Positions 3,727 through 54,746 of a stretch of DNA of 64,000 nucleotides are shown here, in pieces. A program made the position numbers and the translations under genes. Below the pieces are notes generated by a model. The model searched no databases. It worked only from the letters and a program-made list of their open reading frames with translations, and had not been told where the DNA came from. The stretch's first letter is position 1, and the number at the start of each line of letters is the position of its first letter. Source of the DNA: Amnibacterium sp. (GTDB taxonomy: Bacteria > Actinomycetota > Actinomycetes > Actinomycetales > Microbacteriaceae). The stretch spans positions 1 to 64,000 of the forward strand of contig JAICSU010000002.1 of NCBI GenBank assembly GCA_025936735.1, given 5' to 3'.

Positions 3727-3742
3727 GTCAACTCTAGTTGAC
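3727..3742. promoter_or_regulatory. Inverted repeat GTCAACT-CT-AGTTGAC, candidate operator
   Basis: Read directly; sits 2 nt upstream of the small HTH protein ATG (3724, minus strand). Confidence 0.6.
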
Positions 3743-3776
3743 GGATGAGGGGGAACCGTACCGAGCGCGCCGGCTG

Positions 3777-3796
3777 GCGTCAACTTCGGTTGACGC
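3777..3796. promoter_or_regulatory. Inverted repeat GCGTCAAC-TTCG-GTTGACGC, candidate operator
   Basis: Perfect 8-4-8 palindrome sharing the GTCAAC/GTTGAC half-site with 3727-3742; in the divergent HTH/pobA intergenic region. Confidence 0.6.
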
Positions 3797-3804
3797 TTCG
3801 TCGC

Positions 3805-3819
3805 TTCCGCTGAACGGAA
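3805..3819. promoter_or_regulatory. Inverted repeat TTCCG-CTGAA-CGGAA upstream of pobA, candidate IclR-type operator
   Basis: Read directly; 5-5-5 inverted repeat about 60 bp upstream of the pobA start. Confidence 0.4.
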
Positions 3820-3878
3820 CTCACACCGCGGTCCCTGCCTGCACCTGGCACGGTGGACGCGACGCGAAGGAGCGGCCA

Positions 3879-5821: not shown

Positions 5822-6437
5822 CGAGGAGCGGCTCACCGCCCCCGAGCAGCTCGCGCGCGACGAGCCCCTCACCGGAGGCCCGGAGCTCGTGCAGACCCCG
5901 TCGCAGACCGTCGGCCCCTTCTTCGCGTTCGCGCTGCCGTTCGACGGGGGGCCGTTCCTCGTGCCCGCCGGCGCCCCGGGCGCGATCCGCCTGCACGGCG
6001 CGGTGCTCGACGGTGCGGGCGCGCCGGTGCCCGACGCCCTGATCGAGGTGTGGCAGCGGGACGCGGACGGCCGCGTCGTCGCCGAGCCGGGCAGCCGCCG
6101 GCGGGAGCGGGGCGCGTTCACCGGCTTCGGCCGGGCGGCGGCCGAGGTCGACGGCTCGTACGAGTTCCGAACCGTGCTGCCCGGGCCGGATGCGGCCGGC
6201 GCCCGCTGGGCGCTGCTCACCGTGTTCGCGCGCGGCCTCCTGCACCACCTCTTCACCCGGGTCTACTTCGTCCCGGAGGGCGAGGACGAGCCCACGGACG
6301 CGCTCCTCGACCGGCTCCCCGCCGAGCGCCGTCGCACGCTGATCGCTCGGGAGTCGACCGACGGCGCCTACCGTTTCGACGTGCGGCTGCAGGGCGAGGA
6401 TGAGACCGTGTTCCTCGACTACCCCGGGCCGCGATGA
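5808..6437 (+). CDS. pcaG: Protocatechuate 3,4-dioxygenase alpha subunit
   Basis: QTPSQTVGPFFAFALP..., ALIEVWQRDADGR..., intradiol dioxygenase alpha family; 14 nt overlap with pcaH. Confidence 0.92.
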   Translation: MASADEERLTAPEQLARDEPLTGGPELVQTPSQTVGPFFAFALPFDGGPFLVPAGAPGAIRLHGAVLDGAGAPVPDALIEVWQRDADGRVVAEPGSRRRERGAFTGFGRAAAEVDGSYEFRTVLPGPDAAGARWALLTVFARGLLHHLFTRVYFVPEGEDEPTDALLDRLPAERRRTLIARESTDGAYRFDVRLQGEDETVFLDYPGPR

Positions 6438-7744
6438 CCCCGTCCGTCGACCTCGGCCTGCTCGATCCCGCCACCGGCAGCGCCGCCGCCGCGATCTCGG
6501 ACCACGCCTACGCCGCGGCGATGGTCGACGTCGAGCTCGCGCTCGTGCGGGCCCTCGTGGCGGTCGACGCCGCGCCGGAGCGGGACGAGGGGTGGGCCAC
6601 GGACGCGGTGGATGCCGACGCCCTGGCCGTCGGGGCGCGGGCGAGCGGCAACCCGGTGATCCCGCTGCTCGCGCAGCTGCGGAGGGCGGCCCCGCCCGAG
6701 GTGGCCGAGGTCCTGCACCTCGGCGCGACGAGCCAGGACGTGCTCGACAGCGCCACCATGCTCGTCGCCGCTCGAACCCGGCAGCGGATCGACGCGGCAC
6801 TGACCCCGGTCCTCGCGGGGCTCGCCGCGCTCGCCGACCGGCACCGGGCCACGCCCGCCGTCGGTCGCACGCTCGGCCAGCAGGCCGCGCCGACCGTCTT
6901 CGGCCTCCGCATAGCCGTGCTCCTCGACGGGGTGCGGCGTGCCGCACAGCACCTCGACGCGCTCGAGCTGCCCGCCCAGCTCGGCGGATCCGTCGGCACC
7001 CTCGCCGTGCTCAGCGACCTGCTCGGGGTCCAGCGCGCCGACCAGGTGCGCCGCCGCTTCGCCGAGGAGCTCGGCCTCGCCTTCCGGCCGACCGTCTGGC
7101 ACGTCGAGCGCGGCCCCGTCGCCGAGCTCGGCGCGGCGCTCGCCGTGCTGATCGGTGCCCTCGGCCGCCTCGGCCTCGAGGTCGCGCAGGGCACCCGCGC
7201 CGAGCTCGGGGAGCTCGAGCTGCGCCTGGGGGCGGACGAGGGCGGGTCCTCCGCGATGCCGCAGAAGCACAACCCGGTGCCCGCGATCCTGCTCGTCGCC
7301 GCCGCGCGGCGGGCGCCCGGGCTCGCCGCGACCCTGCTGGGCGCGCAGCTCGCCCTCGACGACCGGCCTCCGGGCGAGTGGCACGCGGAGTGGCAGCCGC
7401 TGCGTGAGCTGCTGCGGCTCGCGCTCGAGTCCGCCGTGCTGGCCGCCGAGGTCGTCGCCGCCCTCGAGGCGGATCCGGGCCGCCTCACGGGCCATCTGGA
7501 TGACGGCCACGGCGCCGTGCATGCGGAGCGGGCCCAGTGGGCGCTCGTGCCCCACCTCGGCCGCGCCCGCGCCCAGGAGCTGGTGCGCGCGGCCCTCGGC
7601 GCCCGCGACTTCGTGCCCGCGCTCCTCGCCTCGCTGGCGGACCAGCCGGAGGCGGCGGACCGCGTGCGCGCCGTCACCGATCCACGGACGCCCGTCGGCC
7701 TCGCCGGCCCGATGATCGACGCCGCCGTCGGGAGCGCGCGGTGA
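6434..7744 (+). CDS. pcaB: 3-carboxy-cis,cis-muconate cycloisomerase
   Basis: HLGATSQDVLDSA, GGSSAMPQKHNPV fumarase/ASL signature; ATGA overlap with pcaG. Confidence 0.92.
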   Translation: MTPSVDLGLLDPATGSAAAAISDHAYAAAMVDVELALVRALVAVDAAPERDEGWATDAVDADALAVGARASGNPVIPLLAQLRRAAPPEVAEVLHLGATSQDVLDSATMLVAARTRQRIDAALTPVLAGLAALADRHRATPAVGRTLGQQAAPTVFGLRIAVLLDGVRRAAQHLDALELPAQLGGSVGTLAVLSDLLGVQRADQVRRRFAEELGLAFRPTVWHVERGPVAELGAALAVLIGALGRLGLEVAQGTRAELGELELRLGADEGGSSAMPQKHNPVPAILLVAAARRAPGLAATLLGAQLALDDRPPGEWHAEWQPLRELLRLALESAVLAAEVVAALEADPGRLTGHLDDGHGAVHAERAQWALVPHLGRARAQELVRAALGARDFVPALLASLADQPEAADRVRAVTDPRTPVGLAGPMIDAAVGSAR

Positions 7745-8904
7745 CGCCCGTGCTGCGCGGCGTGGTGGATCCGACGTCCGCCCCCGGATCCGCCGCCCCG
7801 CTCCTCGTGCTCGGGCCCTCGCTCGGCACCACCGCCGACACCTGGTCCGCCGCCGCGGAGCGGCTGAGCGCCCGGTATCGCGTGCTCCGCTGGGACCTGC
7901 CCGGCCATGGCGCGAGCCCCGCGGCGGCCGGCCCGTTCTCGGTCGCGGACCTCGCCCGCGGGGTGCTCGCTCTCGTCGATTCGCTCGGCGACCGGCGCTT
8001 CACCTACGCGGGCGTCTCGCTCGGCGGTGCGGTCGGCATCGAGCTCGCCCTGATGGTCGGGCCCGACCGGCTCGACGGGCTGGCCGTGATCTCCTCGGAC
8101 GCCCGGATCGGTGAACCCGACGCGTGGCGGGAGCGTGCCGCCCAGGTGCGCCGCCAGGGCACGGCCGGCATGGTCGCCGGGAGCGGGCGCCGATGGTTCT
8201 CCCCGTCGTTCCCGACTCGGGACCCGGACGCGGTCGGGATAGCCCTCGCGGACCTGCTCGATGTCGACGACGAGTCCTACGCCCTCTGCTGCGAGGCCCT
8301 CGCCGACTTCGACCGGCGGGACGACCTCGACCTGCTCGACGTCCCGGCCGTGGTGGTCGCCGCCGACAGCGACCCCGTCGTCACCGCGGCCGACGGCGAG
8401 GCGCTCGCCGCCGCCATCCCCGGTGCCGTGGCGCTCGTGCTCGCGGACACCGGCCATCAGGCGCAGCTCGAGCGGCCGGACGCCGTCGCTGCGGCCGTGC
8501 TCGACCACCTGCCCCAGACGGGGGATCGGTACGGCGCCGGCCTCGCGGTGCGCGGCGCGGTGCTCGGCGAGGACTACGTCGAGGCGTCCTTCGCCGCCAT
8601 CACGCCCGAGACGGCGGACTTCCAGCGCTTCATCACGGAGACGGCGTGGGGGTCGGTCTGGACGCGGCCGGGGCTCGACCGGCGCATGCGCAGCGCCGTC
8701 ACCATCTCGAGCCTCGTCACCGGTGGCCACTGGCACGAGCTCGAGCTGCACCTCCGGGCGGGCCTCACGAACGGCCTGAGCCGCGAGGAGCTGGCGGAGA
8801 TCCTGCTGCACACGTCGATCTACGCGGGCGTGCCCGCCGCGAACACGGCGTTCGGGCGGCTGAAGCGGGTGCTCGCGGAGCACGACGACACGGACGAGAC
8901 GTAA
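7741..8904 (+). CDS. pcaDC: Fused 3-oxoadipate enol-lactonase / 4-carboxymuconolactone decarboxylase
   Basis: GTG start overlapping the pcaB stop; N-terminal alpha/beta hydrolase (WDLPGHGASP, YAGVSLGGAVGIEL) then CMD domain (RYGAGLAVRGAVLGEDYVEASFAAITPETADFQRFITETAWGSVWTRPGLDRRMRSAVTISSLV). PcaL-type fusion. Confidence 0.9.
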   Translation: MTPVLRGVVDPTSAPGSAAPLLVLGPSLGTTADTWSAAAERLSARYRVLRWDLPGHGASPAAAGPFSVADLARGVLALVDSLGDRRFTYAGVSLGGAVGIELALMVGPDRLDGLAVISSDARIGEPDAWRERAAQVRRQGTAGMVAGSGRRWFSPSFPTRDPDAVGIALADLLDVDDESYALCCEALADFDRRDDLDLLDVPAVVVAADSDPVVTAADGEALAAAIPGAVALVLADTGHQAQLERPDAVAAAVLDHLPQTGDRYGAGLAVRGAVLGEDYVEASFAAITPETADFQRFITETAWGSVWTRPGLDRRMRSAVTISSLVTGGHWHELELHLRAGLTNGLSREELAEILLHTSIYAGVPAANTAFGRLKRVLAEHDDTDET

Positions 8905-8914
8905 GGAGGCTCGG

Positions 8915-9694
8915 ATGGACAAGCGAGTGGGGAGCGCCGCGGAGGCGGTCGCGGACATCCCGAGCGGGGCGTCGATCGCGGTCGGGGGCTTCGGCCTGAA
9001 CGGCGTGCCGATCGAGCTGATCCGGGCGATGCTCGCCGGCGACGTGAAGGACCTCGAGGTGGTGTCGAACAACTGCGGCGTCGACGGCTGGGGGCTCGGG
9101 CTCCTGCTCGCCGACGGCCGCATCCGCCGGGTGATCGGCTCCTACGTCGGCGAGAACAAGGAGTTCGCACGCCAGTACCTCGGCGGTGAGCTCGAGGTCG
9201 AGCTCACCCCGCAGGGCACACTCGCCGAGCGGCTGCGGGCCGGCGGTGTGGGCATCCCGGCCTTCTACACGGCGAGCGGCGTGGGCACGATGGTGTCGGA
9301 GGGCGGCCTGCCGTGGCGCTACGACGCCGACGGCGAGGTGCTCGTCGCCTCCCCGCCGAAGCCCACCGCGGAGTTCGACGTGTTCGGCAGCGCCAAGGAG
9401 TACGTGCTCGAGACGGCGATCCGCACGGACTTCGCCCTCGTCCGCGCGACCAAGGCGGACCACCACGGCAACCTCGTCTTCGAGAAGTCGTCGCGGAACT
9501 TCAACCCGCTCGTCGCCATGGCGGGCCGGGTCACGATCGCCGAGGTCGACGAGGTGGTGGAGCCCGGCGGGATCGACCCCGACGCGGTGCACCTGCCGGG
9601 CATCTACGTCGACCGGGTCGTGCAGCTGACCCCGGAGCAGGCGAACGACCTGCCCATCGAGAAGCGCACCGTGCGCACGCGACAGGAGGCCTGA
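8915..9694 (+). CDS. pcaI: 3-oxoadipate (3-oxoacid) CoA-transferase subunit A
   Basis: [33 protein letters not shown]..., CoA-transferase subunit A family. Confidence 0.88.
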
Positions 9695-9696
9695 GG

Positions 9697-10356
9697 ATGC
9701 CGCTCACCCGGGACCAGATGGCGGCGCGAGCCGCGCTCGAGCTCCAGGACGGCTCGTACGTGAACCTCGGGATCGGGCTGCCCACGCTCATCCCGAACTT
9801 CGTGCCGGAGGGCCGCTCGATCGTGCTGCATTCCGAGAACGGCATACTCGGCGTCGGTCCCTACCCCTGGGAGGGCGAGGAGGATCCGAAGCTCATCAAC
9901 GCGGGCAAGGAGACGGTCACGATCCTGCCGGGCGCGGCGTTCTTCGACTCCGCGACGAGCTTCGGCATGATCCGCGGCGGCCGCATCACTGTGGCCGTGC
10001 TCGGCGCGATGCAGGTGTCGGAGCACGGGGACATCGCGAACTGGGCCATCCCGGGCAAGCTCATCAAGGGCATGGGCGGCGCCATGGACCTGGTAGCCGG
10101 TGCGAAGCGGGTCATCGTGCTGATGGAGCACGTCGCGAAGTCCGGGGACCACAAGATCCTCGCCGAGTGCACGCTGCCGCTCACCGGCCGGGCCTGCGTC
10201 GACCGCATCATCACGGACCGCTGCGTGTTCGACGTCACGGACGACGGCCTGCTGCTCATCGAGCTCGCGCCCGGCGAGACCGTCGACTCGATCCGCGAGC
10301 TGACCGGCTGCGATTTCGCCGTCGCCGAGCCGCTCGCCTCCGAGGTGCCCGCGTGA
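9697..10356 (+). CDS. pcaJ: 3-oxoadipate (3-oxoacid) CoA-transferase subunit B
   Basis: [39 protein letters not shown]; subunit B SENG motif. Confidence 0.88.
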
Positions 10357-11567
10357 CGGAGCTGCGCGAGGCGGTCGTCTGCGCCCCCGTGCGCACGCCC
10401 GTCGGCCGCTACGGCGGTGCGCTCGCGCCGGTCCCGGCGCAGGCCCTCGCCACGACGGTGCTCACCGCGCTGCTCGACCGCTCCGGCCTGCGCGGGGACG
10501 CCGTCGACGACGTGATCGTCGGCCAGTGCTACCCCACGATGGAGGCGGCCCCGATCGGCCGGGTCGCCGCCCTCGACGCCGGGCTGCCCGTCACCGCCAC
10601 CGGCTACCAGCTCGACCGGCGCTGCGGATCCGGCCTGCAGGCGGTCGTGAACGCGGCGATGCAGGTGCAGACCGGCGTGTCGGACGTCGTGATCGCCGCC
10701 GGCGTCGAGTCCATGAGCAACGCGCCGTACTACACCGAGGAGGGCCGCAGGGGCCTGCCGCCCACCGCCCTCGTGCTGCACGACGCGTTGAGCCGCGGCC
10801 GCGAGCGGGCCGGCGGCCGGTTCCATCCGACGCCCGACGGCAACATCGGCACCGCCGAGACGCTGCGCCGCGAGTACGGCATCTCGCGGCAGCGGCAGGA
10901 CGCGTACGCGCTGCAGTCGCACCGCCGGGCGGTCGCCGCGCAGGAGGCGGGCGCGTTCGACCGGGAGATCGTGCCCGTCACGGTGCCGGGGCGGAAGGGG
11001 GACCTCACCGTGTCGCGCGACGAGCATCCGCGGGCCGACACGTCGCTCGAGGCGCTCGGTGCGCTCCGTCCCGCGCTCGGCCGGTCCGACCCGGACGCGA
11101 CGGTGACCGCGGGCAACGCGAGCGGCCAGAACGACGCCGCGGCGGCCTGCATCGTGACGACGCCGGAGCGCGCGGCGGCGCTCGGGCTCACGCCGCTGCT
11201 GCGCCTCGCGACCTGGGCCGTGGCGGGCGTCGAGCCGGAGCGGTTCGGCATCGGGCCCGTGCCCGCCGCGCGCCGAGCCCTCGAGCGGGCCGGCATCGGC
11301 TTCGAGGATCTCGACGTGCTCGAGCTGAACGAGGCGTTCGCCGTGCAGGTGCTCGCGTGCCTCGACGAGTGGGGGATCGAGGACGCCGACCCTCGGCTCA
11401 ACCCTCGCGGCAGCGGGATCTCCCTCGGTCATCCGCTCGCCGCGACGGGCGTGCGGATGCTCGCGACCCTCGCGTACGAGCTCCACGACCTCGATGGCCG
11501 GTGGGCGCTCGAGACGATGTGCATCGGCGGGGGCCAGGGCCTCGCGGCGGTCTTCGAGCGCGTCTAG
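10353..11567 (+). CDS. pcaF: 3-oxoadipyl-CoA / acetyl-CoA acetyltransferase (thiolase)
   Basis: [75 protein letters not shown] thiolase signatures; GTGA overlap with pcaJ. Confidence 0.9.
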
Positions 11568-11671: not shown

Positions 11672-12439
11672 TCAGGCCGGGCGGTCGGCCGCCACCGCGC
11701 GGCCGATCGCTCGCGCGGTCGTGAGCAGGGCGGGCACGAGCGGCCGGGAGTCGGTGTCCATCGCCCCGACGACCGAGACGGCGGCGACCGGCGTGCCGCG
11801 CACGACCACCGGTGCCGCGATGGAGACCTGCCCCGGCGTCAGGTGGCCGCGCAGCTCGCACCAGCCCGACCGGCGCGCGAGCGCCACCGCCGCCCGCAGC
11901 CGGTCGCCGTCGCCGATCGTGTCCGGCGTGATCCGCTCGAGCGGTCCCGCCGCGAGCCGGTCGAGCACGTCCGGAGCGGCTTGCAGCAGCACGACGCCCC
12001 CGCTGGTGGCGTGCGCCGGCAGGCGGCCGCCCGGCCTGCTGCGCAGCTGCACCGCCGTGCGGGCGCGCAACCGTTCGACGACCACGACCTCCGTGCCGTC
12101 GAGCACGAGCAGCTGCACGTTCTCGTGGGTGACCTCGTAGAGGTCCTCGAGGTACGGCAGCGCGATCTCCCGCAGGCCGTGGCCGCGCGGGGCGAGGGTG
12201 CCGAGCTCCCAGAGCTTCAGGCCGATGCGGTAGCGGCCGTCGGGGGAGCGCTCGAGCACCCGCTCCCGCTCGAGCTGGCCGGCGAGCCGGTGCGCGGTGG
12301 TCAGCGGCAGGCGGCAGCGCTGCGCGAGCTGGGTGAGGGTCAGCCCCTCGGCGGGGGCGGTCCCGAACGCGCCGAGCACAGCGGAGACGCGGGCGACGAC
12401 GCCCGGGCCGGCGACGTCGTCAGCCGGGGACGCCGACAC
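11672..12439 (-). CDS. IclR-family transcriptional regulator (candidate PcaR)
   Basis: LTQLAQRCRLPLTTAHRLAGQLERERVLERSPDGRYRIGLKLWELG HTH; C-terminal SIAAPVVVRGTPVAAVSVVG effector domain; faces the pca operon. Confidence 0.85.
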   Translation of the reverse strand: MSASPADDVAGPGVVARVSAVLGAFGTAPAEGLTLTQLAQRCRLPLTTAHRLAGQLERERVLERSPDGRYRIGLKLWELGTLAPRGHGLREIALPYLEDLYEVTHENVQLLVLDGTEVVVVERLRARTAVQLRSRPGGRLPAHATSGGVVLLQAAPDVLDRLAAGPLERITPDTIGDGDRLRAAVALARRSGWCELRGHLTPGQVSIAAPVVVRGTPVAAVSVVGAMDTDSRPLVPALLTTARAIGRAVAADRPA

Positions 12440-12983
12440 GGAACACCCGCAGCTGCAGGGCGAGGGTGGCGTAGTAGCCCACGAGCGTCGTGAGCTCGAA
12501 GACCACGCGCTCCCCGAGCACGGGGGCCGATGCCGCCCATTCCGCATCGGACACGTCGCCGGCCGCTATCGCGCGCGCCAACCGCAAGGCGGTGATCTCC
12601 ACCGCGTCGCCCGTCTCGGGCACCTCGCCGCGGGAGAGGGTCCCGAGCTCGTCGTCCGTCAGCCCCACGCTGCGCCCGACCGCCTCGTGGGCGTGCCGCT
12701 CGAAGGCGGAGTCCCAGCGCGCCGCGACGAGCAGGATCGCGCCCTCGCGGATCCGCGGTGGGAGGGAGGTCGCGTATCGGATCGCTGCGCCGAGGCGTTG
12801 CAGCGCGTCGCCGAGCTCCGGCGCGAGCAGGAACGCGTTGAACGGGCCGAGCAGCGCTCCGTCCGGTCCCGTGAGCGCGAAGTGCTGCGGGCCGGTCGCG
12901 CGAGGTCCCCCTGCGATCGCGTCGTACAGGGTGCGCTGCGCGGGGTCGAGCACGTCCGGTAGCGGCGAGGGGATGCGGCTCAC
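12420..12983 (-). CDS. Carboxymuconolactone-decarboxylase-family protein (orphan)
   Basis: LLGPFNAFLLAPELGDALQRLGAAIRYATSLPPRIREGAILLVAARWDSAFERHAHEAVGRSVGLTDDE; CMD-like fold without an AhpD CxxC; overlaps both neighbouring IclR genes. Confidence 0.75.
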   Translation of the reverse strand: MSRIPSPLPDVLDPAQRTLYDAIAGGPRATGPQHFALTGPDGALLGPFNAFLLAPELGDALQRLGAAIRYATSLPPRIREGAILLVAARWDSAFERHAHEAVGRSVGLTDDELGTLSRGEVPETGDAVEITALRLARAIAAGDVSDAEWAASAPVLGERVVFELTTLVGYYATLALQLRVFRVGVPG

Positions 12984-13780
12984 GCGGCGACCAGTCTGAG
13001 CCCGATCTCGCGGGCCGCCTGCCGGGTCCGGTCCAGGATGGGCCCCCGAAGGGCGGCGACGTCCTGCCGGGCGGCGGAGACCGCCACGTTGATCGCCGCG
13101 ACCGGAGTGTCGCTCCCGCCGAAGATCGGGACCGCGACCGAGCGCAGGCCGAGCGCGAGCTCCTGGTCCTGCACCGCGAAACCGGCCTCGCGGATCTCGG
13201 CGAGCTGCGCGTCGAGCTGCTCCCGCGAGGTCACGGCGTTCGGTCCGTGTCCCGGCCCGAACGCGTCCGGCCCGAGCCGGGTCGTGATCTCGTCCGCGGG
13301 CAGGTAGGCCAGCAGGAGCTTGCCCATCGAGGTCCACACGGCGGGCAGTGTGGAGCCGACCTGGATGTTGGCGGTCACGAGGTCGGCGTTGCGGAGACGG
13401 GCGAGGTAGAGCACCTGGTCGCCCTGCAGCACACCGAGGTTCACCGTCTCGCCGGTCGCGGCCGCGAGCGCGCGGAGGGGCCGTTCGCTCGCCTCCACGA
13501 GGCCGGCGCCGCGCAGGGCGGACGAGCCGAGGGTGAGCACGGCGAGACCGGGACGGATGTTGCCGTCCTCGTCGCGCTCGAGGAACCCTTCCTCCTCGAG
13601 TGTCGCGACGATGCGGAACGCCGTCGGCATCGGCACGCCCGTGCGGTCCACGATCTCGCGCAGCCGCAGCGATGTCGTCGACTCGTCGAAGAGCCGCAGC
13701 ACCTGCAAGCCCTTCGCGAGGGACTCGATGCGGTACTGGTTCTTCGACGACCCGTCGAAGGGCTGCGTCTCGGCGCTCAT
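12980..13780 (-). CDS. IclR-family transcriptional regulator
   Basis: YRIESLAKGLQVLRLFDESTTSLRLREIVDRTGVPMPTAFRIVATLEEEGFLERDEDGNIRPGL; IclR C-terminal domain. Confidence 0.88.
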   Translation of the reverse strand: MSAETQPFDGSSKNQYRIESLAKGLQVLRLFDESTTSLRLREIVDRTGVPMPTAFRIVATLEEEGFLERDEDGNIRPGLAVLTLGSSALRGAGLVEASERPLRALAAATGETVNLGVLQGDQVLYLARLRNADLVTANIQVGSTLPAVWTSMGKLLLAYLPADEITTRLGPDAFGPGHGPNAVTSREQLDAQLAEIREAGFAVQDQELALGLRSVAVPIFGGSDTPVAAINVAVSAARQDVAALRGPILDRTRQAAREIGLRLVAA

Positions 13781-13940: not shown

Positions 13941-14750
13941 TCAATGGCGAACCGCCCCGGTGACCCTGCTCGTGAAGGCGAGCGCGGTCGCGAACAGGCT
14001 CGCGATGTCGGCGGCGCCGCGCCAGAAGTGGCCTGCTCCGGGCACGCGGATGAACTCGGCAGGCACGCCGTGCGCCGTGAGCGCCGCGACGAGGGCCTCG
14101 CTCTGCGCGATGGGGATGAGCTCATCCGCCTCCCCGTGCGCGACGAGGAAGGGCGGCAGTCCGGCGCGCACCTGGCGGGCGGGGCTTGCGGCCTCGGCGA
14201 GGTCGGGCCGCTCCCCGACGGGGCCGCCGAGGAGCCCTGCTTCCCGGGTCAGCGCGTCGCGGTCGAACCGGTCCGGATCCGCCGGGAACAGGTCGCGGCC
14301 CAGGCGGGTGAGGTCCGCAGGGCCGTACCAGTCGACGACTCCCGCGATACCGGTCGGCTCCCGGATGGCGGCGAGCGCGGCGAGGTGGGCTCCCGACGAT
14401 TCGCCCCACAGCACGAGCCGCGCCGGGTCCACGCCGTACTCGGCTCCGTGCTCCCGCAGCCAGTGCACCGCGGCGACGACGTCGTCGACCGGTGCGGGGA
14501 ACGGCGCCTCGCCGCTCAGGCGGTGGTCGACCGCAGCGACGGCGAACCCCGCAGCGGTGATCCTGCCGAACGAGTCGGCGTCGCCGAGACCGGGAGTGAA
14601 GGTGCGGCGGCTGCCGAGCCGCCACCCACCTCCGTGCACGAACACGACGACCGGCGCCGGACGCGCGTCCGGCAGGTGCAGGTCGAGGCTCAGCGGCCGG
14701 AAGCCCGGGAACTCCGCGAAGACGACGTCGCGGACGACCTCGGCCGTCAC
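13941..14750 (-). CDS. Alpha/beta hydrolase (HSL/esterase type; candidate depside esterase)
   Basis: VVVFVHGGGWRLGSR oxyanion motif, LVLWGESSGAHLAALAA nucleophile elbow; GTG start overlaps the stop of the upstream cupin by 4 nt. Confidence 0.8.
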   Translation of the reverse strand: MTAEVVRDVVFAEFPGFRPLSLDLHLPDARPAPVVVFVHGGGWRLGSRRTFTPGLGDADSFGRITAAGFAVAAVDHRLSGEAPFPAPVDDVVAAVHWLREHGAEYGVDPARLVLWGESSGAHLAALAAIREPTGIAGVVDWYGPADLTRLGRDLFPADPDRFDRDALTREAGLLGGPVGERPDLAEAASPARQVRAGLPPFLVAHGEADELIPIAQSEALVAALTAHGVPAEFIRVPGAGHFWRGAADIASLFATALAFTSRVTGAVRH

Positions 14751-15319
14751 GGGGTCTGGTCGAAGCGGAACTCCGGCCGGAAGAGGGTGCCGTACTTCTC
14801 GCCCGCGGCCTGCATCTGCTCGCGCGACGGCACGAAGACCTCGTCGCGACCCGGGATGCCGGGTGTGTCGGTCTTGCGGCCCATCGCATGGAAGAACCGG
14901 CCGAAGCCCGCGGTCGAGGTACCGAGCACCTTCGAGGTCGCTTCGAACCGGTAGGCGTGCACGACGTTCTTCGGCACGTAGGCGAAGTCGCCGGTCGAGA
15001 GGATCCGGTCGGCCTTCGTGCCGTGCTCGTCGTCCATCCACACGTGCACGGTGCCGTCGACGACGTAGAAGATCTCGTGCGTCCACAGGTGCAGGTGCGC
15101 CGGGATCATGCTGCCTGCGTGGCCCTCGGCCGTGAAGACGTCGTACTGGCCCTCGGTCTCGTCACCGGAGAGCAGGATCGTGAACAGATCGCCGAACAGC
15201 ACCGACTTCTCACCCTCGCCCTGCTGGAGGGTGAAGGGCACGGGCCGGCCGGGCAGCACGCCCGGGAACTGGTCGCGCTCCGCGGACTCGTCGACGCGGG
15301 GCGGGGTGTCGATCGTCAT
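14747..15319 (-). CDS. Quercetin 2,3-dioxygenase-like monocupin
   Basis: 190 aa; LFGDLFTILLSGDETEGQYDVFTAEGHAGSMIPAHLHLWTHEIFYVVDGTVHVW...GDFAYVPKNVVHAYRFEATSKVLG; 3His-1Glu cupin ligand pattern HxHxxxxE...H as in bacterial QueD-type monocupins. Confidence 0.72.
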   Translation of the reverse strand: MTIDTPPRVDESAERDQFPGVLPGRPVPFTLQQGEGEKSVLFGDLFTILLSGDETEGQYDVFTAEGHAGSMIPAHLHLWTHEIFYVVDGTVHVWMDDEHGTKADRILSTGDFAYVPKNVVHAYRFEATSKVLGTSTAGFGRFFHAMGRKTDTPGIPGRDEVFVPSREQMQAAGEKYGTLFRPEFRFDQTP

Positions 15320-15427: not shown

Positions 15428-16324
15428 GTGGACGTCCCCATCTCGGCCCTCTCGTCGTTCTGCGTGCTCGCGGAAGAGCTGCACTTCGGGCACGCCGCCG
15501 CACGCCTACGGATGGCCTCGCCGTCGCTCAGTCAGCAGATCGCGCGCCTCGAGTCGCAACTCGGCGTGCGCCTGTTCGACCGGACCCCCCGCAGGGTGGT
15601 GCTGACCGAGGCGGGGAGGGAGCTGCTGCCCCTCGCGCTCGAGGTGCGGCGGGGGCATCGCGCCGTGCTCGATTGGGCGTCGGCCCGCAGCGGGAGCGCG
15701 GAGCAGCGCTTGCGCGTCGGGGTGGTGGCCGCGGGCGCCGGCGAGCTGACGACCGCGGTGCTCGCGCAGGCGGTGCAGCGGATGCCGCGGTTACGCCTCG
15801 AGATGCGCCGGCTCGGCTTCTTCGACGCTCCGACCGAGCTGCTCGCGGGCACGGTGGACGTCGCGTTCGCGCCCGCGCCCCTGCCGCTGCCGCCCGGGGT
15901 GCGGGCGCGGGAGGTGACCCAGGAGGGCCGCGTGCTGGTCGTCGCCCGCGACCATCCGCTCGCCGGGCGATCGTCGGTCGGCATCGGGGAGCTGTCGGAC
16001 GAGACGTTCATCGCGCCCGCCGGCGGGGAGAAGGCGGTGCTCGACTGGTGGCTGGTCGATCCTCGACCGGACGGCGGCCACCCGCGTCGGGGGCCCGTGG
16101 CCGACGACATCGAGGGCATCCTCGAGCTCTGTGCCGCGGGTGTCGGGGTGAACATCGCGGCGGCGTCCGTGGAGGGTCACTACCGCCGGAACCAGGTGGC
16201 GTTCATCCCCATCCGCGACATCCCGCCGGCGTCCATCGTGCTCCTGGTGCTCGAGACCCGCGACGAGCCCGAGGTGCTCGCCTTCGAGCGGATCGCCCTG
16301 GAGCTGTCCGGCCGCGCCGGTTGA
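15428..16324 (+). CDS. LysR-family transcriptional regulator
   Basis: LSSFCVLAEELHFGHAAARLRMASPSLSQQIARLESQLGVRLFDRTPRRVVLTEAG; divergent from the cupin gene. Confidence 0.88.
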   Translation: MDVPISALSSFCVLAEELHFGHAAARLRMASPSLSQQIARLESQLGVRLFDRTPRRVVLTEAGRELLPLALEVRRGHRAVLDWASARSGSAEQRLRVGVVAAGAGELTTAVLAQAVQRMPRLRLEMRRLGFFDAPTELLAGTVDVAFAPAPLPLPPGVRAREVTQEGRVLVVARDHPLAGRSSVGIGELSDETFIAPAGGEKAVLDWWLVDPRPDGGHPRRGPVADDIEGILELCAAGVGVNIAAASVEGHYRRNQVAFIPIRDIPPASIVLLVLETRDEPEVLAFERIALELSGRAG

Positions 16325-16390: not shown

Positions 16391-17158
16391 GTGGAGGACG
16401 ACCGAACGGGAGCCGGCTGGCTCGGTCTCGAGACCAGTCGGGTGCTCGTCGCGGGCGCGGGAGGCATCGGCGCCGCCTGTGCCAGCGCCTTCGCGGAGGC
16501 CGGAGCCCGCGTCGCCGTGGTGGACCGCAGCGCGGAAGCTCTGGCGGAGCTCGCCGCGTCCTTCCCCGGCGACCTCGTGGCCATCCAGGCCGACCTCACG
16601 GAGCACGGGGCCGGAGCGCGCGTGGTGGGCGACGTGCTCGAGCGACTCGGTGGCCTCGACGTGCTGCTCCACGCGGTCGGCATCAACGACCGCCGGCCGA
16701 TCCTCGACTTCACCGAGGACGAGTGGGACCGGATCCTCCAGGTCAACCTCACGACCCTCTTCGGCCTCGCGCAGGCGGCTGGGCGGCACATGGTCGAGCG
16801 GCGCTCGGGCCGGGTGCTCGCGCTCTCCTCGGTCTCCGGGCTGCTCGCCCACCACTCGCACGGCCCGTACGCCGCGTCGAAGGGCGGGATCAACCAGCTG
16901 CTGCGGGTGATGGCCCGCGAGTGGGCGCCGTACGGAGTGACGGTCAACGCGCTCGCACCCGGCTACATCGAGACGCCGCTCACCGCGCACCACCTCGCGC
17001 AGCCCGGCAAGCGCGACGAGCTCGAGTCCCAGGTGCCCGCCGGGCGCCTCGGCACCCCCGGGGAGCTCACCGGGCCGGCGCTCTTCCTCTCGTCGCGCCA
17101 CGCGCAGTTCATCACCGGGCACGTGCTGTACATCGACGGGGGCCGCACGCTCGTCTGA
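16391..17158 (+). CDS. SDR-family oxidoreductase
   Basis: VLVAGAGGIGAACASAFAEAGARVAVVD, NDRRPILDF, SSVSGLLAHHSHGPYAASKGGINQLLRVMA (S-Y-K), PGYIETPLT. Confidence 0.87.
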   Translation: MEDDRTGAGWLGLETSRVLVAGAGGIGAACASAFAEAGARVAVVDRSAEALAELAASFPGDLVAIQADLTEHGAGARVVGDVLERLGGLDVLLHAVGINDRRPILDFTEDEWDRILQVNLTTLFGLAQAAGRHMVERRSGRVLALSSVSGLLAHHSHGPYAASKGGINQLLRVMAREWAPYGVTVNALAPGYIETPLTAHHLAQPGKRDELESQVPAGRLGTPGELTGPALFLSSRHAQFITGHVLYIDGGRTLV

Positions 17159-17192: not shown

Positions 17193-17987
17193 GTGACGGA
17201 AGCGGAGGGCGCGCGGATCTTCCCGCGGTTCGCCGGCAAGACCGTGCTCGTGACCGGAGCCGGGACAGGGGTCGGGGCGGAGGTCGCGGTGCGCGCGGCG
17301 CAGGAGGGGGCGCGGGTCGCCATCCACTACCGCAGCTCGAAGGCCGGCGCCGAGGAGACGCTGCGGCGCGTGCGGGAAGCCGGGCAGGAGGGCGTGCTCG
17401 TCCAGGCCGACATCTCGTCCTGGGACCAGATCAAGCGGATGGCGAACGAGGTCTGGGAGGCGTTCGGCGGCCTCGACGTCCTCGTCAACAACGTCGGCGA
17501 CGTCTCGAGCGAGCAGATGTCGTGGCGTGAGCTGACCCAGGAGGCGCTCGACGCGGTGGTCGACGTCGACGTGAAAGGCACTCTGCTCATGACGCACGAG
17601 TTCGGCGAGCGGATGCTCGAGCAGGGCCACGGCAGCATCATCAATGTCGGCTCCACCGTCATCGTGCGCGGCTCGCCCCGCGCCCCCCAGTACGCCGCGG
17701 CCAAGTACGCGATCCTCGGCATCACCAAGTCCTACGCGAAGGTGCTCGCACCCGCCGTCCGGGTGAACACGTTCGCGCCCGGCTTCATGGAGACCGAGCG
17801 GCTGCTGAACCGCGCGGACTGGAAGAGCGGCCGCCGCGAGGTGCTGCTGTCGCAGACGCCGATGGGCGTCATCCCGCCGCCCGAGTTCGTGGCGGGGACG
17901 TGCCTCTGGCTCGCCACCGAGGAGGCGGCCCATCTCACGGGCTCGTACCTGCTCGCCGACGGCGGCTTCAACATGGTCGGCGCCTGA
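17193..17987 (+). CDS. SDR-family oxidoreductase
   Basis: VLVTGAGTGVGAEVAVRAAQEGARVAIHYR, LVNNVGDV, NVGSTVIVRGSPRAPQYAAAKYAILG; GTG start with RBS GAAGGAG. Confidence 0.87.
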   Translation: MTEAEGARIFPRFAGKTVLVTGAGTGVGAEVAVRAAQEGARVAIHYRSSKAGAEETLRRVREAGQEGVLVQADISSWDQIKRMANEVWEAFGGLDVLVNNVGDVSSEQMSWRELTQEALDAVVDVDVKGTLLMTHEFGERMLEQGHGSIINVGSTVIVRGSPRAPQYAAAKYAILGITKSYAKVLAPAVRVNTFAPGFMETERLLNRADWKSGRREVLLSQTPMGVIPPPEFVAGTCLWLATEEAAHLTGSYLLADGGFNMVGA

Positions 17988-18017: not shown

Positions 18018-18899
18018 ATGAAGCTCATCACATTCGACGAGGGCCGCGTCGCCCGGCTCGAGGGCGACGACGTCATCGAGCTCGACGTGCCGTCCACCCG
18101 CGAGTACTTCGAGCGCGGCGGCGAGGTGCGCGAGACGGGGGAGCGCCTGCGGCTGCAGGACGTCCGGCTGCGCGCCCCCATCCGGCCGAAGAAGTTCTTC
18201 CACACCGCGGGCAACTTCGCCTCGCATCACGAGGAGCTGACGGCGGTCAACTGGTCGCATCCGGTGCACAAGGGAATCGTGTTCTTCCAGAACGTCGACG
18301 CGATCATCGGCCCGGACGACGACATCGTCTACCCCGCGACCCTGACTAAGGAGATGGACTACGAGCTGGAGCTCGCCGTGGTGATCGGCAAGGCGGGCAA
18401 GTTCTTCGGACCCGACGAGGCCGAGTCCTACATCGCCGGCTTCACCGTGTTCAACGACATCACCGCGCGCGACATCCAGCGCCGCGAGATGCAGTCGGGC
18501 GTCTTCTCGTTCAGCAAGGGCATCGACACCTTCTGCCCGATCGGCCCGTGGATCGTGACGGCGGACGAGATCGACGACTACCAGCAGCTCGCCATGCGCC
18601 TCCGCGTGAACGGCGAGGTGCGTCAGACCGGCAACACGAACGACATGAAGCTGACGCTGCCGCAGCTGATCTCGTACCACTCCCCGCAGGGCTACAGCGC
18701 GGGCGACCTCATCACGACCGGCACCGTGTCCGGCGTGGCCGCCGTCCAGCCGAACCCCTTCGACTTCTACCTGCGGCCCGGCGACGTGGTCGAGGCGGAG
18801 ATCGACGGCGTGGGAACGCTGCGCAACCGCGTGGTCACGTGGGAGGACGCGTACGGGGAGCCGGAGCCCACGGCGGCGAACGCCGCATCCGCCCTGTGA
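18018..18899 (+). CDS. Fumarylacetoacetate hydrolase (FAH)-family protein
   Basis: MDYELELAVVIGKAGKFF, GFTVFNDITARDIQRREMQSGVFSFSKGIDTFCPIGPWIV, GDLITTGTVSGVA; FAH-family metal site. Confidence 0.85.
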   Translation: MKLITFDEGRVARLEGDDVIELDVPSTREYFERGGEVRETGERLRLQDVRLRAPIRPKKFFHTAGNFASHHEELTAVNWSHPVHKGIVFFQNVDAIIGPDDDIVYPATLTKEMDYELELAVVIGKAGKFFGPDEAESYIAGFTVFNDITARDIQRREMQSGVFSFSKGIDTFCPIGPWIVTADEIDDYQQLAMRLRVNGEVRQTGNTNDMKLTLPQLISYHSPQGYSAGDLITTGTVSGVAAVQPNPFDFYLRPGDVVEAEIDGVGTLRNRVVTWEDAYGEPEPTAANAASAL

Positions 18900-18909
18900 G
18901 GGCGGCACT

Positions 18910-19764
18910 GTGAGGCTCGGGAACGCCGGCGGCCGCCTCCTCCTCGTCCGTGGGGAGGACCGGGGGATCGATGTGGCCGTCGCCAGCGGCGGCCGCTTCG
19001 GTCCGGACCCGCACGACGCGCTCGACCGGTGGGCCGAGTTCGCGGCCTGGGCGGCCGCCTGCACCGCGGAACCGGACGTGACGTTCACGCCCGCCGAGCT
19101 GGGACCGCCCGTCCCGCGCCCCGCGCAGGTGTTCGCGATCGGGATCAACTACCGGGAGCATGCGGACGAGGCGGGCTACCCGCCCGCGAGCATGCCGGTC
19201 ACCTTCACCAAGTTCCCGACCTGCCTCACGGGCCCGGACGCGGTCGTCGAGCTGCCCACGCCGACCGTCGACTGGGAGGTCGAGCTCGTCGTGGCGATCG
19301 GACTCCGCGCGGAGCGGGTCGGACGGGCGGACGCCTGGGCGCACGTCGCGGGCCTGACCGTCGGCCAGGACCTCTCCGAGCGCACCAGCCAGCTCGAGGG
19401 CACGCGACCGCAGTTCAGCCTCGCGAAGTCGTATCCGGGCTTCGGCCCCACCGGCCCGTGGCTCGTGACGCCCGACGAGCTCGACGACCCCGCTGATCTC
19501 GCGATCTCCTGCTCCCTCGGCGACGAGGTCCTGCAGGAGAGCCGCACCTCGCGGATGATCTACGACATCCCCGAGCTGATCGCGCGCCTCTCGGCGGTCT
19601 GCCCGCTGCTCCCCGGGGACCTGATCTTCACCGGCACCCCCTCCGGGATCGGCAACGCCCGCACGCCGAAGCGCTTCCTCGTCGGCGGCGACGTGCTCAC
19701 CACGACCATCGAGGGGCTCGGATCGCTCCGCACGCGGTTCACCGGCCCGAGGGAGGCGGCATGA
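18910..19764 (+). CDS. Fumarylacetoacetate hydrolase (FAH)-family protein (second paralogue)
   Basis: VFAIGINYREHADEAGY, VDWEVELVVAIG, GLTVGQDLSERTSQLEG, FSLAKSYPGFGPTGPWLVTPDE, GDLIFTGTPSGIG. Confidence 0.87.
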   Translation: MRLGNAGGRLLLVRGEDRGIDVAVASGGRFGPDPHDALDRWAEFAAWAAACTAEPDVTFTPAELGPPVPRPAQVFAIGINYREHADEAGYPPASMPVTFTKFPTCLTGPDAVVELPTPTVDWEVELVVAIGLRAERVGRADAWAHVAGLTVGQDLSERTSQLEGTRPQFSLAKSYPGFGPTGPWLVTPDELDDPADLAISCSLGDEVLQESRTSRMIYDIPELIARLSAVCPLLPGDLIFTGTPSGIGNARTPKRFLVGGDVLTTTIEGLGSLRTRFTGPREAA

Positions 19765-20660
19765 GCGAGCCGTACGACCTGGCGCTGCGCGCCCCGGACC
19801 ACGACTTCCGGATCCGCGTGTACCCGGCCGCCGAGCCGACCGGCGCTGCGCTCGTCTGGCTGCACGGGGGCGCGTTCATGTTCGGCACGATCGACATGCC
19901 GGAGGCGGACGAGGTCGCTCGGCGGCTCGCCGCGCTCGGGGTGCCGGTCGTCTCCGTCGACTACACCCTCGCGCCGCTCGCCGCGCTGCCCGAGTACCCG
20001 GAGGACCCGCCGGAGGGCATGCCGTCGCCGGAGCAGATCCGGGCGGAGCTCGCCGCCGCCGGCCCGCGGGCCCGCTTCCCCGTGGCGTCGCTGCAGACCG
20101 TCGCCGCCTTCGACTGGGCCGTCGAGCACGCCGCCCAGCTGGGCGCCGATCCGAGCCGGATCGCGCTCGGCGGCGCCAGCGCGGGCGGCAACCTCGCGGC
20201 CGGGGCCGCCGTACGGCTGCGCGACCGCGGCGACGCTGCGCCGGTCGTCCTGCTGCTCGCCTACCCGGTGCTCCACCGCGTCCTGCCCGACGCGGACGAG
20301 GAGCTGCTCGGCCTGCTCGAGGGGCTTCCCGAGCCGCTCACCTTTCCGCCGGACGAGGTGCGGGCGTTGAACCTGAATTATGTGGGGGACGAGGAGCTCC
20401 TCGTAGACCCGGCCGCCTTCCCCGCGGGTCACGACGCCCGTGGACTGCCGCGGACGGTCCTGGTGACCGCCGACAGAGACCGGCTGCGCAGCTCCGCCGA
20501 GGCTTTCGCCGCCGAGCTGGCCGTCGCCGGCGTCGACGTGGTCCTGCAGCGGGAGCACACCGCCCTGCACGGATTCCTGAACGAGGTCGGGCATCCGGCC
20601 GCCACCCGCGCGATCCGGCGGTTCGCGTCCGAGCTCGACCAGACCAGGAGCACCCCGTGA
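19761..20660 (+). CDS. Alpha/beta hydrolase (HSL-type esterase)
   Basis: ALVWLHGGAFMFG, RIALGGASAGGNLAAGAAVRLRDRG, catalytic His region HTALHGFLNEVGHP; ATGA overlap upstream. Confidence 0.85.
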   Translation: MSEPYDLALRAPDHDFRIRVYPAAEPTGAALVWLHGGAFMFGTIDMPEADEVARRLAALGVPVVSVDYTLAPLAALPEYPEDPPEGMPSPEQIRAELAAAGPRARFPVASLQTVAAFDWAVEHAAQLGADPSRIALGGASAGGNLAAGAAVRLRDRGDAAPVVLLLAYPVLHRVLPDADEELLGLLEGLPEPLTFPPDEVRALNLNYVGDEELLVDPAAFPAGHDARGLPRTVLVTADRDRLRSSAEAFAAELAVAGVDVVLQREHTALHGFLNEVGHPAATRAIRRFASELDQTRSTP

Positions 20661-21901
20661 CCGATCGACCCTTTCCCGCCGACTTCCTCTGGGGCGTGGC
20701 GACCGCCGGCCACCAGAACGAGGGCGACAACACGACCAGCGACACCTGGTTCCTCGAGCACGTGTCCCCGACGATCTTCCGGGAGCCCTCCGGGAGGGCC
20801 TGCGACGGCTGGCACCGCTGGCCGGAGGACCTGGACCTCGCGGCCGCGATGTCCCTGAACGCGTACCGGTTCTCCGTCGAGTGGGCCCGGGTGGAGCCCG
20901 AGGAGGGCCGGTTCGACGAGGCGGCGCTCGACCACTACGAGGCCCTCGTCGACGGGTGCCTCGAGCGGGAGCTGGCGCCGGTCGTCACCTTCAACCACTT
21001 CACGGCGCCCCACTGGTTCGCCGCGAAGGGCGGCATGCTCGCGGACGACGCCGCCGACCGCTTCGCCCGGTACTGCGACGCGGTGATGGCACGGTTCGGC
21101 GACCGGATCGCGTTCGCCCTCACCCTGAACGAGCCGAACCTGCCGCGGCTGCTCGCGTGGGTGCTGCCCGACGCGGTGGTCGACATCACCCGGGCCACGC
21201 TGCGAGCCGCATCGGAGGCGGCGGGGGTCCCGCGCTACCGCGCGTCGAACGTCGTGCAGCCGGAGGACTACGAGGCCATCGAGGACGGGCTGACCCGGGC
21301 GCATGTCGCGGGGAAGGCGGCGATCAAGGCGCGCCGGCCCGACCTGCCCGTCGGCTTCTCGATCGCGATGGTCGACGATGTCGCCGCGCCCGGTGGCGAG
21401 GCGCTGCGCGACCGGAAGCGGGACGAGGTCTACGGGCGCTGGCTCAACCTCGCGCGTGACGACGACTTCGTGGGCGTGCAGAACTACGAGCGGGTCGTCT
21501 ACGGCCCGGACGGTCCGGTAGCCGCGCCCGAGGGCGCGGTGCTGAACGAGATGGGCTCGGCGGTGGAGCCGGCCTCCCTCGGCGGAGCGGTGCGATACGC
21601 CCACCACAGAACGGGCGTACCCGTGTTCGTCACCGAGCACGGCGTCGGCACCGAGGACGACGCGATCCGTGTCGGCTTCCTCCGGCCGTCCCTCGACGGG
21701 CTCGCCGACGCGATGGCGGACGGCGTTCCCGTGCTGGGGTACTGCCACTGGACCCACCTCGACAACTTCGAGTGGGTCGGCGGATACGGGCCCAAGCTCG
21801 GCCTGCATGCCGTCGACCGCGCGACGTTCGAGCGCACGCCGAAACCGAGCGCCGCGGAGTACGGCCGACTCGTCGAGCAGCACCGCAGGCCCCGGACCTG
21901 A
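20657..21901 (+). CDS. GH1-family glycosidase (beta-glucosidase-like)
   Basis: FPADFLWGVATAGHQNEGDN, YRFSVEWARVEPEEG, VVTFNHFTAPHWF, FALTLNEPNLP (acid/base), VFVTEHGVGTEDD (nucleophile), GYCHWTHLDNFEW. Confidence 0.85.
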   Translation: MTDRPFPADFLWGVATAGHQNEGDNTTSDTWFLEHVSPTIFREPSGRACDGWHRWPEDLDLAAAMSLNAYRFSVEWARVEPEEGRFDEAALDHYEALVDGCLERELAPVVTFNHFTAPHWFAAKGGMLADDAADRFARYCDAVMARFGDRIAFALTLNEPNLPRLLAWVLPDAVVDITRATLRAASEAAGVPRYRASNVVQPEDYEAIEDGLTRAHVAGKAAIKARRPDLPVGFSIAMVDDVAAPGGEALRDRKRDEVYGRWLNLARDDDFVGVQNYERVVYGPDGPVAAPEGAVLNEMGSAVEPASLGGAVRYAHHRTGVPVFVTEHGVGTEDDAIRVGFLRPSLDGLADAMADGVPVLGYCHWTHLDNFEWVGGYGPKLGLHAVDRATFERTPKPSAAEYGRLVEQHRRPRT

Positions 21902-22057: not shown

Positions 22058-22134
22058 CGTCCGGGACATCCCGTAGCACCTCGGTGCGGCGGCACTCAGC
22101 ACACGATCTGCGCAAGGCGAAGGAGCCCATCCCC

Positions 22135-23721
22135 ATGAACCGACCCCTACCGCTTCTGGCGGAGCCGAAGCGCTCGGCCTGGTTCCGTGCCGGCGCCGCA
22201 GCGGCGATCGTCGCGATGTCCGCGGGCCTGACCGCGTGCTCGGGTGCCGGCGGTTCCGGCAGCGCCGACGCGTCCGCCACCTCGAAGGTGACCATCGGCG
22301 AGAACGCGGATGCGGCCCCGAACGGTTACGACCCGATGCTGTACTCGGCGGGACAGTTCAACTTCTTCGCCGGTCTCTACGACTCGCTCTTCGTCACGGA
22401 CGCCACGGGCGCCGTCAAGCCGAGCCTGGTCTCCTCGTTCACGAGCAGCAAGGACAACAAGACCCTCACGCTGAAGCTGCGCTCCGGTGTCAGCTTCACG
22501 GACGGCTCCAAGCTCACGGCCGCGCTCGTCAAGCAGAACCTCGATCGGCGCTCCGACTCGACGCTTGCCGCGTACGGCCAGATCTCGAAGACCGGCAGCA
22601 GCGCGATCACGAACATCGCGACGCCCGACTCCAGCACGGTGGTGATCAGCTGGGCGCAGCCGCAGGCGAACGGCGGGAGCGCCCTCGCCGACGAGCCGGG
22701 CGTCATCGTCGGCAGCAAGGGGCTCGCGAACCCCTCCTCGCTGAAGACCGCCCCCGACGGCTCCGGCCCGTACACGCTCGCCACCTCCGGGACCACGCGC
22801 GGCAGCAGCTACACGCTGACCAAGAACACGAAGGCGTGGAACGCCAAGGCGTTCCCGTACAGCACGGTGGTGTTCAAGGTCATCACCAACCCCCAGGCGC
22901 TCGCGAACGCGGTCGCATCGGGCCAGGTCGACCTCGCCGGGCAGCTGGACGGCACCACATTGGGCGTCGTCAAGGGGAAGAAGACCCTCACGCAGGTCGG
23001 CGGCACCATCGTCGGCTTCCCGGTGGCGGACAAGCTCGGCAAGACGAACCCCGCGTTCGCGAAGGTGGCCGTGCGTCAGGCGCTCAGCTACGCGATCGAC
23101 CGCGCGACGGTCGTGAAGGACCTGCACCCTGGCGCGAAGGCGACGGCGCAGCTGTTCCCGTCGACCGCCGTCGGGTTCGACCCGGCCCTGAACACCGCCT
23201 ACGCGTACAACCCCGCGAAGGCGAAGCAGCTTCTCGCGAGCGCCGGCTACCCGAACGGGTTCACGATCAAGCTCACCGTGCTCGGCTCGCCGACGAACGA
23301 CGAGATCGCCGTGCAGCAGCAGTGGGCGAAGGTCGGCGTGAAGCTCGCCTTCGTCACCGCCACCTCGACGGATGCGGTCTTCGCCGCGGCACAGACCCAG
23401 CCGCTCCTGTTCGGGCCGTTCAGCATCGGCTCCAACCCGGCCGGCTTCGTCGCGGGCGTCGTCTACGGGGGCTTCATGAACCTGCAGCACGCGACCGACC
23501 CGAAGATCCAGGCGGCGCTCGGCGGCGCGCTCGGCGCGACGGGGGCCGCCCAGAAGACAGCTCTCACGCAGCTGAACGCGGCGATCACGAACGACGGCTG
23601 GTACATCCCGATCTACGAGTCGTTCAACTACTTCGGGTACGACGCGAAGAAGGTCGCGAAGCCGGCGCTGTACGCCAACTACGGTCAGATCGTGCTCTCG
23701 AGCGTGAAGCCCGCGAGCTGA
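22135..23721 (+). CDS. ABC transporter substrate-binding protein, peptide/nickel (family 5) type, lipoprotein
   Basis: Signal with lipobox ...MSAGLTACSGAG; ENADAAPNGYDPMLYSAGQFNFFAGLYDSLFVTD...; SBP_bac_5 family. Confidence 0.87.
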   Translation: MNRPLPLLAEPKRSAWFRAGAAAAIVAMSAGLTACSGAGGSGSADASATSKVTIGENADAAPNGYDPMLYSAGQFNFFAGLYDSLFVTDATGAVKPSLVSSFTSSKDNKTLTLKLRSGVSFTDGSKLTAALVKQNLDRRSDSTLAAYGQISKTGSSAITNIATPDSSTVVISWAQPQANGGSALADEPGVIVGSKGLANPSSLKTAPDGSGPYTLATSGTTRGSSYTLTKNTKAWNAKAFPYSTVVFKVITNPQALANAVASGQVDLAGQLDGTTLGVVKGKKTLTQVGGTIVGFPVADKLGKTNPAFAKVAVRQALSYAIDRATVVKDLHPGAKATAQLFPSTAVGFDPALNTAYAYNPAKAKQLLASAGYPNGFTIKLTVLGSPTNDEIAVQQQWAKVGVKLAFVTATSTDAVFAAAQTQPLLFGPFSIGSNPAGFVAGVVYGGFMNLQHATDPKIQAALGGALGATGAAQKTALTQLNAAITNDGWYIPIYESFNYFGYDAKKVAKPALYANYGQIVLSSVKPAS

Positions 23722-23797
23722 TCCTCACCGGGGCGGTCCGCGACGCGGGCCGCCCCGTCCTCGGCGACGACGCTGAAGTAGAGAGAGGGGGGCGACG

Positions 23798-53288: not shown

Positions 53289-53291
53289 GGG

Positions 53292-54725: not shown

Positions 54726-54746
54726 CCGGCCCTCCCCTCCGCGGCG

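Follow-up and report, generated by a model that had tools for sequence, protein, structure and literature searches.

The window analyzed here, 64,000 nucleotides of an Amnibacterium genome (GC content 72.7%; a draft of 2.9 Mb in 322 contigs, 84% complete), carries the overlapping genes of a cupin and an α/β hydrolase. The question is whether the two enzymes catalyze consecutive steps of flavonol breakdown, as an earlier note on this DNA had suggested. We consider it likely that they do, and that the pair forms the core of a flavonol-glycoside (rutin-type) utilization locus. The reference for comparison is QueD of Streptomyces sp. FLA (5FLI, 5FLJ), a Ni-dependent flavonol 2,4-dioxygenase. The loci surveyed in named genomes comprise 29 whose cupin shares at least 50% identity with that of the window, called close loci below, and 51 more distant QueD-type (Streptomyces-type) loci. 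The features of the window are collected in Table 1.

Table 1. Features of the window. The last column gives occurrence among the 25 full-length close loci, between which gene order is shuffled.
Feature	Position	Strand	Basis	Close loci
PobA (4-hydroxybenzoate 3-monooxygenase), PcaH, PcaG, PcaB, PcaDC, PcaI, PcaJ, PcaF	3738..11567	+	NCBIfam	
IclR regulator, PcaR/PcaU/PobR type	11672..12547	-	NCBIfam TIGR02431 5e-33, below cut-off	
CMD_b, carboxymuconolactone-decarboxylase-family protein	12420..13016	-	Pfam CMD 1.8e-6, above gathering	23/25
IclR_b, IclR regulator	12980..13780	-	Pfam	23/25
α/β hydrolase, proposed depside (2-protocatechuoylphloroglucinol carboxylate) esterase	13941..14750	-	GTG start, 269 aa; Pfam BD-FAE	
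QueD-type monocupin quercetinase (flavonol 2,4-dioxygenase), putative	14747..15319	-	ATG, 190 aa; phmmer, ligands, tree, Pfam Cupin_2	
LysR regulator, divergent, conserved with the pair	15428..16324	+	Pfam	24/25
SDR1 oxidoreductase	16391..17158	+	Pfam	17/25
SDR2 oxidoreductase	17193..17987	+	About 70-91% identical in relatives	23/25
FAH1, fumarylacetoacetate-hydrolase-family	18018..18899	+	Pfam 2.5e-67	22/25
FAH2, fumarylacetoacetate-hydrolase-family	18910..19764	+	Pfam 2.4e-57	22/25
Second α/β hydrolase (Abhydrolase_3)	19761..20660	+	Pfam	18/25
GH1 β-glucosidase-type glycosidase	20657..21901	+	Pfam 2.8e-58	19/25
Oligopeptide/dipeptide-type ABC importer (solute-binding protein, two permeases, ATPases), candidate glycoside importer	22122..27728	+	Pfam BPD_transp_1, ABC_tran, oligo_HPY	21/25 (DppB permease)
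GH78 α-L-rhamnosidase	28664..31327	-	Pfam Bac_rhamnosid6H 4.8e-94 and flanking domains	19/25
L-rhamnose catabolism: RhaI isomerase, sugar kinase, aldolase/SDR fusion, lactate-dehydrogenase-type protein	52050..58485	-	RhaI, TIGR02635 over cut-off; companion genes, Pfam	

In a phmmer search of PDB sequences, residues 18–186 of the cupin match QueD 5FLI with an E-value of 1.3e-37 and 40% identity over 168 residues. Both proteins are monocupins of about 190 residues with FGDL and VPKN..HAYR segments and a set of three His and one Glu metal ligands. The segment PAHLHLWTHE of the window cupin supplies H75-x-H77-x4-E82, and VPKNVVHAYR supplies H121. In the sequence alignment, these residues match exactly H69, H71, E76, and H115 of QueD, an enzyme that keeps little or no activity when they are replaced by alanine (PMC4416304). 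All four ligands are invariant across 10 relatives of the cupin. The matches in the PDB better than 1e-10 are quercetinases only, namely QueD, YxaG/QdoI of Bacillus subtilis (1Y3T, 2H0V, 8HFB; 5e-33 and homologous to the window cupin in both of its cupin domains), and a fungal quercetinase (6e-11); the next cupin follows at 1e-3.

A maximum-likelihood phylogeny of 89 rows, with long branches and few outgroup cupins, gives the same placement. The QueD-side clade holds 85 rows, including the window cupin, and excludes both domains of the bicupin YxaG with support of 98/87; the same split also sets two distant family matches apart. Within this clade, a Microbacteriaceae/Demequina group is sister to the Streptomyces QueD group, and the window cupin belongs to the former, its closest named relative being that of Amnibacterium sp. 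CER49 (90% identical). Since the AF2 model of the cupin has a pLDDT of only 36, the assignment is drawn from sequence. It is supported that the cupin is a QueD-type quercetinase, grouped with QueD and apart from non-dioxygenase cupins, and the coordinates and the HxHxxxxE...H and VPKNVVHAYR motifs read in the earlier note hold.

The hydrolase belongs to the BD-FAE/Abhydrolase_3 family of Pfam (BD-FAE, PF20434, 166 bits against a gathering score of 26.8; E 8e-49). Its catalytic apparatus is intact, with the oxyanion motif HGGG in HGGGW at residue 39, the nucleophile S118 in GESSG, and D209 and H241; ten relatives all have this S118-D209-H241 triad. The AF2 model (pLDDT 94.7) finds its nearest solved structures by Foldseek among acetyl xylan and carbohydrate esterases and Lip_vut4, with a heroin esterase and a feruloyl esterase (4zrs) lower among the matches. 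Inspection of the N-terminus reveals no apparent signal peptide, which fits a substrate that is an intracellular intermediate. The esterase fold is a common one, and this counts against reading a depside esterase from it.

The TGA stop of the cupin (14749-14747) and the GTG start of the hydrolase (14750-14748) share the four nucleotides GTGA, the overlap that the earlier note had described, and the LysR gene is divergent as it had stated. The arrangement of the pair is constant among the close loci: in 29/29, the hydrolase lies downstream of the cupin on the same strand. The two genes are directly adjacent in 28, and the remaining locus (L056) has a single gene between them. At the Streptomyces-type loci, a relative of the hydrolase is found downstream in 31/51, directly adjacent in 25. 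None is nearby in the other 20/51, contig ends among them. The coupling is therefore not strict in Streptomyces. Apart from the window, the exact 4-nt overlap was seen at no loci other than those of the closest relative (L029/L018) and, going by the gene calls, L038; at most of the others, the two genes overlap or are separated by anything from a few to some tens of nucleotides. It follows that the adjacency is conserved and the precise overlap mostly is not. Chance adjacency, given many esterases per genome, was considered as an explanation and is ruled out by the locus counts and by co-occurrence across genomes.

As for co-occurrence, a strong cupin match is present in 8/300 genomes of the same family. 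Among 180 same-family genomes, hydrolase matches with E ≤ 1e-60 occur in exactly the seven that are cupin-positive, and the best matches in the remaining genomes are 1e-45 or weaker. A sample of the phylum (n = 397) contains the cupin in three genomes, the window's own and two of Streptomyces type, with the hydrolase near the cupin in 3/3. PcaG is present in 8/8 cupin-positive same-family genomes against a background of 49/200 (Fisher 4e-5, from the 7 cupin-positives within the 200, a p-value that ignores phylogenetic relatedness). RhaI is over its cut-off in 8/8 against 112/200, a comparison that likewise takes no account of relatedness. FAH1 (E ≤ 1e-90) is found in 8/300 family genomes, 7/8 of them cupin-positive, an association with a Fisher value of 1.6e-12 over the 300 genomes, again ignoring relatedness.

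The Streptomyces loci bring the hydrolase next to QueD itself. The QueD sequence taken from the PDB alignment (5fli) shares 99% identity with the cupins at two loci, L062 of S. achromogenes and L076 of S. eurythermus, and at both the gene order is QueD, amidohydrolase, esterase. An amidohydrolase gene lies between cupin and esterase at six Streptomyces loci, and a different Amidohydro_2 gene is the one that intervenes in L056. The solved protein closest to one such Streptomyces amidohydrolase is the unassigned metal-dependent hydrolase 2f6k, followed by uracil-5-carboxylate, 5-carboxyvanillate, and γ-resorcylate decarboxylases. By these matches, the Streptomyces amidohydrolase belongs to a family of non-oxidative aromatic decarboxylases. 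Judged from family membership, a gene of this kind in this place would be expected if the hydrolase releases 2,4,6-trihydroxybenzoate. The pairing in function put forward in the earlier note gains support in that the hydrolase is a conserved partner of QueD and that several Streptomyces loci have the decarboxylase-family gene in between.

Unlike QueD, the window cupin falls in its own Microbacteriaceae/Demequina clade and lies within a glycoside catabolic cluster. Genes for LysR, IclR, CMD, SDR, FAH, permease, GH, and second-esterase proteins are each found near Streptomyces QueD in only 0 to 2 of 40 cases. The regulators also differ: in place of the LysR gene of the window, most Streptomyces-type QueD loci have a MarR-family gene (9412-9873 in L073, with similar genes at 33 other loci), as a rule divergently oriented, which possibly encodes a flavonoid-sensing regulator.

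The cluster of rhamnosidase, glucosidase, importer, and SDR/FAH/CMD genes is conserved with the pair in Microbacteriaceae and Demequina. Next to the pair, the window carries PobA and the Pca genes of the protocatechuate branch of the β-ketoadipate pathway. The NCBIfam models for PcaG, PcaDC, PcaIJ, and PobA score over cut-off, the last with PRK08243 (501 bits against 351) and not with TIGR02360 (432 against 539). PcaH (5312-5785) is a second, sub-cut-off match to the PcaG model. The equivalog models for PcaB and PcaF are below cut-off (273 of 355.75 and 354 of 597 bits), and the roles of these two genes are still supported because of their operon position. The N-termini of GH78 and GH1 show no apparent signal peptide, which makes import before deglycosylation likely. 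With rhamnose, glucose, and flavonol functions all represented, the gene set fits a rutin-like substrate, and this wider context of rhamnosidase, glucosidase, importer, PobA/Pca, rhamnose, and SDR/FAH/CMD genes considerably strengthens the reading of the pair.

From what is observed directly, namely the gene identities, metal ligands, catalytic triad, synteny, and co-occurrence, we infer all substrates and the order of reactions in the following scheme. The oligopeptide-type importer would take up the glycoside, and cytosolic GH78 and GH1 would strip rhamnose and glucose. Using O2, the cupin would cleave the C-ring of quercetin, or of kaempferol, to give CO and a depside ester, and the translationally coupled hydrolase would split the depside into 2,4,6-trihydroxybenzoate and protocatechuate (or 4-hydroxybenzoate). 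The B-ring acid would be used by the Pca pathway, after conversion by PobA in the case of the 4-hydroxybenzoate derived from kaempferol. The Rha genes would consume rhamnose, and the SDR1-SDR2-FAH1-FAH2-CMD module probably the A-ring acid. The two proposed steps of the pair resemble the fungal rutin pathway, in which quercetinase is followed by a depside esterase; 2-protocatechuoylphloroglucinol carboxylate has been reported from quercetin in Aspergillus (PMC4264116). For bacteria, a Pseudomonas transcriptomics paper mentions the depside esterase step, tied loosely to induced hydrolases, beside pirin-type quercetinases.

Two other readings of the pair were weighed. The hydrolase could remove acetyl, feruloyl, or coumaroyl groups from acylated flavonol glycosides, the cupin still being a quercetinase; the closest solved structures, the match to feruloyl esterase 4zrs, the BD-FAE family assignment, and the presence of glycosidases in the locus would all suit such an enzyme. 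This role nevertheless seems improbable, as the partner is kept at Streptomyces-type QueD loci that have neither GH78 (0/40) nor GH1 (1/40) nearby, and several of these loci pair it with the decarboxylase-family gene instead. The hydrolase also shows no signal peptide, and any deacylation could be done by the second esterase of the locus. It is less probable still that the cupin is a dioxygenase for another substrate, such as another 3-hydroxy-4-oxo heterocycle, whose product the hydrolase handles. An identity to QueD of only 40% leaves room for this, but the strong solved sequence relatives are all flavonol dioxygenases, and the neighboring α-rhamnosidase, β-glucosidase, PobA, and Pca genes fit flavonol glycosides.

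Taking the pair as quercetinase and depside esterase, there is the matter of the A-ring half of the flavonol. We tentatively suggest that CMD_b, SDR1, SDR2, FAH1, and FAH2 might constitute an undescribed oxic route for it, a possibility that we hold with some doubt. In this route, phloroglucinol would arise from 2,4,6-trihydroxybenzoate through decarboxylation by CMD_b and be reduced by one of the SDRs, and one FAH hydrolase would then act on dihydrophloroglucinol to open its ring. Oxidation of 3-hydroxy-5-oxohexanoate would fall to the other SDR, and the second FAH would cleave triacetate to acetoacetate and acetate. CMD_b was also considered as PcaC and rejected, PcaC being fused in PcaDC (7747-8904) and CMD_b being only a weak CMD-family match. 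The logic of the route would be shared with the anaerobic phloroglucinol pathway of Clostridium scatologenes, in which reduction of the keto tautomer by an SDR, hydrolytic ring opening, oxidation, and C–C cleavage lead to acetoacetate (PMC10470551). There, the cleaving steps are carried out by DPGC and the Zn-dependent lyase TAL (PMC10470551), whereas in the window two FAH-family hydrolases would serve. A search of the open-access literature found no FAH-based phloroglucinol route. The solved relatives of SDR1 and SDR2 are led by generic FabG-, gluconate-, and glucose-dehydrogenase-like matches, and none of the best 60 is named as a phloroglucinol reductase.

The same SDR/FAH genes could instead form a non-phosphorylating L-rhamnose pathway. 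Such a pathway also employs two SDRs, and L-2,4-diketo-3-deoxyrhamnonate hydrolase is among the best solved relatives of FAH1 and FAH2 and is their best NCBIfam match. The scores of FAH1 and FAH2, 169 and 179 bits, are however well below the cut-off of 500 for NF053535, and the presence of RhaI over cut-off in all cupin-positive genomes tested means that rhamnose already has a route. Genome G066 is informative here. On one of its contigs (C69, 3784-10102), SDR1, SDR2, FAH1, FAH2, IclR_b, and CMD_b are accompanied by genes for an ABC importer and a 3-oxoacid CoA-transferase; the genome has no cupin, no esterase at the module, no PcaG, no RhaI over cut-off, and no GH78 nearby. The rhamnose role is disfavored by this arrangement and appears unlikely. 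A module without the cupin looks self-contained, its substrate coming from flavonol cleavage or from outside. As a hypothesis, 2,4,6-trihydroxybenzoate or phloroglucinol fits as this substrate, with acetoacetate as the end product for the CoA-transferase. In the Streptomyces-type genomes G545 and G630, a search with FAH1 turned up nothing closer than sequences of about 36-42% identity, none of them near QueD, and so the module is not general to QueD bearers.

Two points are new in this analysis: nearly identical copies of QueD have the conserved esterase next to them, and the cluster includes a candidate A-ring module. QueD is well studied, yet the gene for the next bacterial step, the depside esterase, apparently lacks an assignment in the open-access literature; with the esterase a conserved neighbor of QueD copies of 99% identity, one assay could close this gap. 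The same literature yielded no Microbacteriaceae rutin cluster. The cluster, found in Microbacterium, Leifsonia, Agromyces, Demequina, Amnibacterium, and relatives, would be a marker for rutin-type flavonol use in plant- and soil-associated actinobacteria, and it offers candidate enzymes for oxic breakdown of the phloroglucinol ring. If the proposed A-ring role is true, the module and the quercetinase–esterase pair would make up a complete flavonol-glycoside catabolic unit.

Some further features of these loci deserve mention. The segment 31524-42836 of the window encodes a branched-chain-amino-acid-type ABC importer along with HbpS-like, ApbA, FMN-reductase, methyltransferase, VOC, and aldehyde dehydrogenase genes, a block that may likewise have a role in taking up or degrading aromatic compounds. 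Relatives of several of its genes adjoin the cupin, esterase, IclR, CMD, and PobA genes in a Lacisediminihabitans MAG (L038). An open reading frame at 27760-28623, between the importer and GH78, has no Pfam match and is 59% identical to its counterpart in an Amnibacterium relative (G016, L017). Another GH78-like rhamnosidase (L028, 16-1050) lies on the same contig immediately past the end of the window. A Microbacterium-like cupin-esterase-GH78 cluster on a contig filed as Stenotrophomonas maltophilia P13 is most likely the result of contamination or misbinning. Finally, the cluster of Microbacterium elymi contains several copies of CMD, Abhydrolase_3, and SDR1, which suggests local duplication.
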